A stretch of DNA of 64,000 bases from Flavobacteriales bacterium (GTDB taxonomy: Bacteria; Bacteroidota; Bacteroidia; Flavobacteriales_C; GCA-002722245). Below the pieces are notes generated by a model that was not told where the DNA came from, did no database searches, and saw only the letters and a program-made list of their open reading frames with translations. The stretch spans positions 1 through 64,000 of the forward strand of contig CANFBW010000003.1 of NCBI GenBank assembly GCA_947444925.1, given 5' to 3'. Positions 42,420-44,533 of the stretch are shown one piece after another; position 1 is the first letter of the stretch, and each line of letters begins with the position of its first letter. A program made the position numbers and the translations under genes.

Positions 42420-44045
42420 TTATTTTGCCCTTTTTATTACGTAGCGCATCGTCAATTGATGCGACGCGTAAAGTTGATTTGAACTACTGTAGTTAAATGG
42501 AATAGTTGATAATCCGTAACTGTAAGTCAGTCGCAAATTGTCGCCGGAATAACCCAAGCTAAACAGCATGGCGTCAGCAGTAGAGAAACTTGCGCCAGCG
42601 AGCACGTGCTTGTATTTTACAATGTTGCTCATCCAAAGTTTGTTGTACAAGCCCTGTTTTCTGTAGCTAATGCTAGGCGAGTAAACCCAGTCTGATTTAG
42701 CGTTTTTACGAATATCAGTCCCTAATTGGGCGGTCAATTTTAGAGGCACGTATATCTTTTGATCGAAGTGCTCATCGTTGTATGATGGATTGAACATGTT
42801 GTCGAAAGCTACACCTCCGTAGACTCTTTTGCCATTAAATAAGATACCAGCGCCAATTGTATTGATCATAATTTGACTTGATTCCGTATTTTCAGGAATA
42901 AATGCAGTAGAAGCAAACAGTGTTCCGGTGCGAGGGTCGAAGGCATCGCCAGCCGACAATTGGTTCCAGTTAATTGTTCTGTTGTTGAGGTTGTATCTCA
43001 CAGAAGGTTCGATGGACCATTTGCCTACTTTGATTTTCGGAGAATAAACGAAAGTAAAATTATTGGCATTCATTTGATTGTTGCCAATGATGTCATTGGA
43101 GTATAAAATGGCCACGCCACCCTTGAGTTTTTTCACATAAGTGTCTATCGAAACAGTGTTTGTGAGACATGAAGCAGATAGCACCTCTGGCCATTCGCTG
43201 CGCGCCAGATATTTGATGCGAATACCGTCTGTGTTGCCTGCAAAAGAAGGGTTCTCTTGGATTGGAGAAACTCCGCCATACAAAGCAAAAGGATCACCTA
43301 AATTCACTAATTCTAGTCCACCTTTTTGATTCATTTCATTTGCCGCCAGATCAGGTTGCAAAGCAATAAAACGATCGTCATCTGCTATAGTATTTTTGCC
43401 AACCGTATTGATAAAGCTAAAGAATACAGTGTTTTCTGATGCGGCTATTGCGTCATTTTGCAGCGTTGATTGCGCGTCATCGTTTGATGCCTGCACGGCA
43501 AAATTGCTTTGCTTTAACTTGTGATTGTGCAAAATAGTAGCTGTGTTCGCGACACTATTTTTGCTGCGCTCGTATTGATCGTGTGTGTTGTTGTTGTTGT
43601 TGTTGTTGTTGTTGTTGTTGTTTGTAATTAAGCTTGCGCCAGATTGGGCCGCTGCAGCATTTTTATCAATTGTTGTCTTTATTGTCGAGTTCACTTCATT
43701 TTTTCTTGTTGTTTCATTGCCATTAACGACTTTTTGATCACTTGATCCTGGAGCTAATTTGAGGTATACGGCATAGCTGAAGAAAGACAATAAAATTAAA
43801 ATTAATGAACTAGCGCTCCATTTCAACCAGGTAGCGGGAGCAGTTTCTTCTTTAGCCAAAAGGCTGTCAACATTTTTGAATTGCAAATGATCGTCTTGTA
43901 CATAACTATTGCCCCACGCTTGAAAATCCTTCAAGTATGAAGGATTTGTGCTGACGAACTGATCCACCGCTGATCTTTCCTGCCCCGACAGGTTGCCCTC
44001 GAAATAGTCGAAGAAAACCTGATCCATATTGTTCTTGTCTATCAT
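42420..44045 (-). CDS. anti-sigma-like/PorP-SprF fusion protein
   Basis: A 541-residue protein of unusual build. Residues 1-70 are soluble and acidic ('FFDYFEGNLSGQERSAVDQF', 'VSTNPSYLKDF'), like the cytoplasmic part of Bacteroidota anti-sigma factors. Residues 77-96 form one membrane helix ('ASSLILILLSFFSYAVYLKL'). Residues 97-255 are a polar linker with twelve Asn in a row (142-153). Residues 256-541 are PorP/SprF-like: 'LYGGVSPIQENPSFAGNTDG', 'VKKLKGGVAILYSNDIIGNN', 'LSAGDAFDPRTGTLFAS', ending in barrel-like strands. The start overlaps the sigma factor stop (ATGA), and a separate PorP gene follows 44 bases downstream. If folded as predicted, it would cross the inner membrane and reach the outer membrane as one chain. 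An ATG 18 bases in (44027) is an alternative start. Confidence 0.82.
   Translation of the reverse strand: MIDKNNMDQVFFDYFEGNLSGQERSAVDQFVSTNPSYLKDFQAWGNSYVQDDHLQFKNVDSLLAKEETAPATWLKWSASSLILILLSFFSYAVYLKLAPGSSDQKVVNGNETTRKNEVNSTIKTTIDKNAAAAQSGASLITNNNNNNNNNNNNTHDQYERSKNSVANTATILHNHKLKQSNFAVQASNDDAQSTLQNDAIAASENTVFFSFINTVGKNTIADDDRFIALQPDLAANEMNQKGGLELVNLGDPFALYGGVSPIQENPSFAGNTDGIRIKYLARSEWPEVLSASCLTNTVSIDTYVKKLKGGVAILYSNDIIGNNQMNANNFTFVYSPKIKVGKWSIEPSVRYNLNNRTINWNQLSAGDAFDPRTGTLFASTAFIPENTESSQIMINTIGAGILFNGKRVYGGVAFDNMFNPSYNDEHFDQKIYVPLKLTAQLGTDIRKNAKSDWVYSPSISYRKQGLYNKLWMSNIVKYKHVLAGASFSTADAMLFSLGYSGDNLRLTYSYGLSTIPFNYSSSNQLYASHQLTMRYVIKRAK
43587..43622. repeat. (GTT)12 microsatellite encoding Asn12 in the fusion protein
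   Basis: Twelve perfect GTT units on the plus strand, read as twelve AAC codons on the minus strand. They lie in the periplasmic linker of the anti-sigma/PorP fusion. Slippage by whole units would change linker length without breaking the frame. Confidence 0.95.
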
Positions 44046-44533
44046 ATTAAATTACTTATGTCCTTAATCTGATCTTTCATTTTTTGTCTCGCCCTAAATA
44101 AATACACTTTTACCTGTGATTCATTGAGTTTAAGCATTTCACCAATTTCCTCGTAACTATAGCCCTCCATATCGCGCAAGAGTAAAATTGAGCCTTGTAT
44201 TTCAGGAAGTGTTTTAAGGCACCTGTCAATTACCTCTTTAAGTTCAAAGTTGGTGCTGTTGCTATTTTCGGAAGGTTCTAAATAACTTGATCCTTCTATC
44301 GATTGCATTCTACTGTGCTTCTTAACAAAGTTAATCAGCGCGTTGTGTGCAGTAGTGAACAGCCATGACTTTGCTTTTTCAACTTCAACATTTTCCCGGT
44401 GTTGCCATAATTTCATGAACGCATCTTGCACAATGTCATTCGCATCATCTTCATCGCGAAGTGATTTGAATACATATCCGTAAAGCCTATGGCTTAAGGA
44501 TAGCACAGCTTTATTATATTCCTGTGTTGTCAA
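44042..44533 (-). CDS. ECF-type RNA polymerase sigma factor (with fused anti-sigma/PorP partner)
   Basis: A 163-residue sigma-70 family factor with only regions 2 and 4. Region 2 is visible in 'DEDDANDIVQDAFMKLWQHR' and 'AKSWLFTTAHNALINFVKKH'; region 4 in 'GYSYEEIGEMLKLNESQVK' and 'VYLFRARQKMKDQI'. It directs core polymerase to a special promoter set when released by an anti-sigma factor. The next gene overlaps it by four bases and begins with an anti-sigma-like domain, so the pair is almost certainly functional. Because that partner carries a PorP/SprF domain, the signal may concern the outer membrane or the T9SS. Confidence 0.93.
   Translation of the reverse strand: MTTQEYNKAVLSLSHRLYGYVFKSLRDEDDANDIVQDAFMKLWQHRENVEVEKAKSWLFTTAHNALINFVKKHSRMQSIEGSSYLEPSENSNSTNFELKEVIDRCLKTLPEIQGSILLLRDMEGYSYEEIGEMLKLNESQVKVYLFRARQKMKDQIKDISNLI

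Follow-up and report, generated by a model that had tools for sequence, protein, structure and literature searches.

In a 64,000-nucleotide stretch of DNA from a Flavobacteriales bacterium (hereafter the window), a 541-aa protein joins a putative anti-sigma head, a single membrane helix, a disordered tether and a PorP/SprF barrel in one chain, and its gene lies directly behind an ECF sigma gene. The protein probably acts as a trans-envelope anti-sigma factor of the Dma type, with a barrel of the T9SS shuttle type as its outer-membrane sensor that would report the state of shuttle, cargo or translocon. The features of the locus and of the protein are given in Table 1.

Table 1. Features of the sigma/fusion locus in the window and domains of the fusion protein.
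Feature	Residues	Positions	Strand	Basis or remark
Probable sigma-dependent promoter TGTAACATAATACCTGACAGATTGTT, before the sigma gene		44576..44601	-	Motif TGTAAC-N15/16-TTGTT
ECF sigma factor gene		44042..44533	-	163 aa, TTG start; Pfam r2/r4 and NF058625
Gene of the 541-aa fusion protein (its four parts follow)		42420..44045	-	
Three-helix head, putative anti-sigma domain	1-70	43836..44045	-	AlphaFold2 helices 7-16, 21-33, 35-46
Single membrane helix	77-98	43752..43817	-	Sole hydrophobic segment before the barrel; model helix 72-97
Disordered polar tether with Asn run	99-245	43311..43751	-	pLDDT mostly <35
PorP/SprF barrel; lacks the Cys C-tail found in the neighbouring PorP	246-541	42420..43310	-	PF11751/TIGR03519
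Separate PorP/SprF gene, signal peptide and Cys C-tail, frame broken by one base		41411..42375	-	Two PF11751 halves

Locus and architecture of the fusion protein

A preliminary description of the window had reported an ECF sigma gene that overlaps a 541-residue gene by ATGA, and this overlap was confirmed at positions 44045-44042 (-). The sigma factor matched Pfam Sigma70_r2 and Sigma70_r4_2 and contained regions 2 and 4 only, as in ECF sigma factors; it also matched NCBIfam NF058625 (sigma_PG0214/GFO_1088 family) with 135.1 bits at a cut-off of 130. It was 79-94% identical to its relatives in the same genus, and its TTG start was conserved in those relatives that were read. The separate PorP gene that had been described downstream was also present. 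Most relatives carried it intact, immediately behind the fusion. In the window, however, its frame is interrupted where one base is missing in comparison with three intact relatives, which may reflect true decay or an assembly error, and in one relative of the same genus (G001, L055) the gene was reduced to a remnant. The broken frame and the remnant suggest that the downstream PorP is non-essential. The genome of the window also contained SprA and nine other ECF-like matches.

The same description had assigned to the fusion an anti-sigma-like start, one membrane helix, a polar Asn-containing linker and a C-terminal PorP/SprF domain, and both family profiles and an AlphaFold2 model, which was built on an alignment of the protein's own relatives, bear this out. 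The protein matched PF11751 (PorP_SprF) over residues 265-535 (E 5.6e-25, 88.8 bits, cut-off 22.3) and TIGR03519 with 105.5 bits (cut-off 90.55); Pfam and NCBIfam both identified residues 260-536 as PorP/SprF. The model consisted of three short helices (residues 7-46), a longer one (72-97), a disordered region (97-242) and, between about residues 274 and 538, a barrel. No Pfam family was recovered in the first 250 residues except for one sub-threshold low-complexity match, and the head had no relative in Pfam or in the PDB, where a search with a head profile gave nothing credible; an FEG-LS motif was invariant in the head. A PDB search with the whole fusion returned EED as its sole match; this was rejected because it was a low-complexity match at the Asn tether. 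The signal peptide of the PorP/SprF family was absent from the fusion, and the head, helix and tether stood in its place.

Structure prediction of the C-terminal part yielded a PorP-like barrel, as had been anticipated, with a mean pLDDT of 87.9 and a pTM of 0.84; it was modelled alone because the disordered half diluted the full-length Foldseek search. The best PDB match of this barrel was 6h3i chain F of the T9SS translocon, which we take to be PorV (TM-score 0.60 on the query), and FadL, OmpU and OmpG barrels followed close behind in score. With an rmsd of 6.7 A and an identity of 11%, the match to 6h3i chain F indicates fold similarity only. All 33 fusions that were compared had a single hydrophobic segment before the barrel, starting at residue 67-84, and a tether of 130-268 residues. 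Runs of Asn codons (AAC repeats) were seen in the tethers of the window (positions 43580-43625), of a second fusion in the same genome (L067) and of L055; such a simple repeat could vary in length.

The statement that no described system is built in this way did not hold, because Dma1 and Dma2 of Bacteroides thetaiotaomicron share the four-part build. According to one report (PMC13088901, citing Pardue et al., 2024, PNAS), both proteins consist of an N-terminal anti-sigma domain, a membrane helix, a disordered tether and a barrel, and are located beside an ECF21 sigma factor; deletion of Dma frees the sigma factor, and the two proteins act on vesicle formation and on polysaccharide utilisation loci. 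Compared by this described build, Dma and the fusion have in common an N-terminal anti-sigma region (putative in the fusion), one membrane helix, a long disordered tether, a C-terminal barrel and an ECF neighbour, and both occur in Bacteroidota. In contrast to Dma as described there, the fusion carries a PorP/SprF barrel of the T9SS shuttle type, is followed by a second PorP gene and has a predicted type B regulon in the window's family. The ECF sigma factor beside the fusion is one of NF058625. PMC13088901 makes no mention of PorP, and a literature search that covered papers open without subscription found no PorP/SprF anti-sigma fusion, which is not a proof of absence. By analogy, the fusion would belong to the Dma kind rather than to a new category, its novelty being the shuttle-type barrel, and its head would likewise be an anti-sigma domain. 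Two other loci of the window's genome (L048 and L053; C47 and C4) carried an ECF sigma gene followed by a gene for a 441-459-aa protein with a membrane helix near its start and a barrel-like C-terminal end; this genome may hold several Dma-like systems.

PorP/SprF proteins are the cognate shuttles of type B substrates, which are picked up at the translocon in cognate pairs (PMC12618676, PMC9143113). The fusion shares the Pfam/NCBIfam barrel family of these T9SS and gliding shuttles, but it is joined to a membrane-anchored head and lacks both their signal peptide and their Cys C-tail.

Conservation and related arrangements

The fusion was present in 8 of the 10 genomes of the window's family (own genus, 5 of 5; sister genus, 3 of 5), and these proteins were 65 to 30% identical to that of the window; the named matches were metagenome-assembled Flavobacteriales. 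In a second family of the class, 60 genomes from 24 genera were sampled, and 30 of them, from 15 genera, had a fusion match with an open frame of 529-684 residues; both parts were present in all 25 loci that were read. The arrangement for which a search had been proposed earlier, a PorP_SprF domain behind a membrane helix and with an ECF neighbour, recurred in both families. The order of sigma gene, fusion and separate PorP was constant wherever the contig continued; apart from contig ends, it was disturbed only by the broken PorP of the window and by the remnant in G001. In most loci read, the head domain followed a sigma gene of the same family. The window derives from a 123-contig assembly and its neighbouring PorP is frame-broken, as might fit an anti-sigma gene and a PorP gene joined by assembly or binning. 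Such a join was rejected with near certainty, because relatives of this range of identity carry the same fusion in independent genomes and in another family. In most loci of one set from the second family (L129-L148), a gene starting M..RLFDIPYYQ was divergent from the sigma gene; by eye, its product is likely an acyl-CoA ligase.

Among three relatives of the same genus, the median identity was 68% for the head and 66% for the barrel, whereas it was 27% for the tether, a pattern that would be expected of two functional ends joined by a spacer. The fused barrel was far more diverged than the neighbouring PorP in the second family (33% vs. 63% identity). A tree was computed for 57 barrels. Its 22 fused members grouped together (94/86), and 96% of the bootstrap trees contained a branch that kept all of them on the same side. 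Two unfused PorPs (L062 and L075), whose genes were located directly behind sigma and short membrane anti-sigma genes, joined this group (96/85), and the neighbouring PorPs were placed elsewhere; the branches of L062 and L075 are long and may have been paired wrongly. From this grouping, a sensor-type PorP seems to exist in both a split and a fused form.

Several related arrangements were identified. The split order of sigma, anti-sigma and PorP genes occurred in L062, L120 and L075. The same head was joined to an OMP_b-brl_2 barrel in L107 and L108, and in L064-L066, L121, L122 and L124 it had no barrel and was followed by the gene of an exported protein that was often outer-membrane-like. 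In L114-L117, a sigma gene of the same type preceded a gene for an anti-sigma-like protein with five or six tandem copies of the head. The genome of the window encoded a second fusion of 675 aa (L067:9151-11178; C1:117153-119177) that matched PorP_SprF in Pfam (E 5.7e-24), with a different head containing repeated motifs and a long Asn tether. Its gene followed another ECF sigma gene and adjoined a gene for a CHU_C (type IX signal) protein, and this fusion was conserved within the genus and could still be recognised in its sister genus. Furthermore, two loci of the second family (L310:623-2633 and L313:518-2536) encoded an ECF sigma factor followed by a 465-478-aa anti-sigma-like protein that ended in a T9SS type B CTD, and both operons had a TGTAAC motif upstream. 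The 675-aa fusion and these two loci show that anti-sigma-like proteins are joined either to a shuttle barrel or to a cargo signal.

Proteolysis is the common route for the control of membrane anti-sigma factors. This, together with the existence of unfused anti-sigma and PorP genes (L062, L120 and L075), would fit a chain that is cut in the periplasm into an ordinary PorP shuttle and a separate anti-sigma stub, in which case the fusion would fix their ratio or a protease relay would carry the signal. We consider such cleavage improbable, since all 33 fusions retain a tether of at least 130 residues, which is enough to cross the periplasm, and since the fused barrels lack the Cys C-tail of the downstream PorPs. 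The preliminary proposal of a chain that spans the envelope holds as far as architecture is concerned: a head, one helix, a tether of this length and a barrel related to T9SS shuttles were always found beside a sigma gene.

A cysteine near the C-terminus was present in 24 of 24 complete downstream PorPs, which mostly ended in CPSF, whereas none of the 33 fused barrels, including that of the window, had a tail cysteine; one contained a Cys in its last 25 residues, within the last strand. The absence of this tail indicates that the fused barrel does not simply duplicate the downstream shuttle. SprF of Flavobacterium johnsoniae is bonded through cysteines of its C-tail to GldK, which belongs to the moving track (PMC12635249). 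The contrast may point to a sensor barrel that is tied to the anti-sigma part and not to the track, but it is suggestive only, because the C-x-C motif of SprF differs from CPSF and because some other PorPs of the window's genome also lack a Cys tail.

Promoter motif and predicted regulon

Of 33 loci, 30 carried the motif TGTAAC-N15/16-TTGTT upstream of the sigma gene, at a distance of 30-78 nt from its start; in Markov-shuffled upstream regions, the corresponding count averaged 0.02 and never exceeded 1. In the eight fusion-bearing genomes of the window's family, TGTAAC-N14/15-ATTGTT had 55 matches and its reversed pattern had 10. Where a gene began shortly after a non-self site, it mainly encoded a giant exported protein. 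These targets were sampled rather than taken from every site of every genome; of the 23 with a typed C-terminus, 19 were type B and four type A, and the others comprised one 222-aa outer-membrane-like protein, one 887-aa protein without a recognised CTD and five that ran off contigs. The genome of the window had CTD matches of type B (46) and type A (138), and five of the six non-self sites before a gene preceded type B genes, one of which (C1) was just below the family cut-off; the chance of this result was about 6e-9 on an assumed 2,900 genes.

A weight matrix, made after the exact matches had been seen, detected the motif in at least 9 of 38 type B upstream regions of this genome, in 0 of 20 type A and in 1 of 58 antisense regions. 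The type B count is a lower bound because the scan missed at least one exact site (C27), and the matrix and exact-pattern tests are not independent because several of the nine sites are identical. The motif preceded only about 10 of the 38 type B genes, and no more than four of the family's eight loci had a giant type B gene beside the operon. Read from the sequence, the sigma factor would control type B cargo, and this applies to the window's family only; there, the predicted regulon lends independent support to the earlier suggestion that the system reports T9SS state. The nine other ECF-like proteins of the genome could share the TGTAAC motif.

In the second family, the motif outnumbered its reversed form in 20 genomes with the fusion (95 vs. 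43) and not in 20 genomes without it (37 vs. 42; Fisher p 0.001). This excess only where the fusion is present ties the motif to the presence of the sigma factor. About half of the 18 targets read were lipoprotein-like proteins of about 128 aa, and the rest were OMPs, one PorP, long proteins ending in CPSF and two operons that pair another sigma factor with an anti-sigma-like protein. The commonest motif-bearing gene there encoded the lipoprotein-like protein ending in '..DIEVRSGD..GIIKIEEE..' (L302, L303, L306, L307, L309, L311, L315 and L316). The same cargo regulon had been expected in this family, but no giant cargo gene was found among these 18 targets, and cargo control may therefore be confined to the window's family. 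Most targets in both families were exported envelope proteins.

The lipoprotein and OMP targets of the second family would also suit a general outer-membrane sensor, whose barrel reports OMP folding, lipid or vesiculation state and uses the PorP fold for convenience, unlinked to T9SS cargo. The head that carries an OMP_b-brl_2 barrel instead fits this explanation, and such sensing has been proposed for Dma1 and Dma2, which act on vesicle formation (PMC13088901). On the other hand, the fused barrels form their own PorP group and are kept beside a PorP shuttle gene, the targets in the window's family are T9SS substrates, type B above all, and the second, different fusion of the same genome adjoins a CHU_C protein. 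A general sensor thus appears unlikely, though it deserves more weight than cleavage of the tether.

Proposed mechanism and significance

Taken together, the four-part build and the role of PorP/SprF proteins as type B shuttles are most simply explained by a barrel that senses the state of type B cargo, shuttle or translocon and relays it to the sigma factor. In this proposed mechanism, the head would hold the ECF sigma factor at the inner membrane, the tether would cross the periplasm, and the barrel would sit in the outer membrane, where the T9SS translocon and type B C-terminal domains (CTDs) would be within its reach. A changed barrel state, most likely type B cargo occupancy or translocon engagement, would free the sigma factor, which would transcribe its own operon (sigma factor, sensor and PorP) and, in the window's family, also giant type B adhesin-like substrates. 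Since the sigma factor would drive both its own operon and type B substrates, we propose that cargo is produced in keeping with the condition of its export route. We infer sigma binding, an uncut chain across both membranes, the ligand and the sign of the signal alike. As for the sign, release of the sigma factor by an occupied barrel is favoured, with about an even chance of being correct; release by an empty barrel is conceivable but has the lower probability. A closed T9SS circuit, in which a receptor of the type B shuttle family is carried on an anti-sigma factor and cargo occupancy sets cargo expression through one chain with neither kinase nor protease, is put forward tentatively, as somewhat short of an even chance.

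In FecA-FecR-FecI signalling, the state of an outer-membrane receptor reaches an ECF sigma factor through an inner-membrane regulator. The receptor and the anti-sigma factor of that system are separate proteins that work with TonB, whereas the fusion is one chain. In Porphyromonas gingivalis, the PorA-PorXY-SigP pathway connects the cell surface and T9SS gene expression through a CTD protein and an ECF sigma factor (PMC7712824). This pathway uses a two-component system and separate proteins and, unlike the fusion, has no anti-sigma/barrel chain.

How bacteria match the expression of T9SS adhesins to the state of their outer-membrane machine is an open question, and the surface-to-sigma link in P. 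gingivalis is indirect and incomplete (PMC7712824). A shuttle-type barrel and a probable sigma-binding head in one protein would give a direct route from secretion to transcription, and would broaden the recently discovered Dma class beyond the control of vesicles to include the secretion of proteins. It also makes a Dma-type signal testable, with type B CTDs as a defined class of candidate ligands. If the closed circuit is true, then together with the anti-sigma-like proteins that end in a type B CTD it would indicate that fusions to either half of the shuttle/cargo pair are a general design in Bacteroidota.
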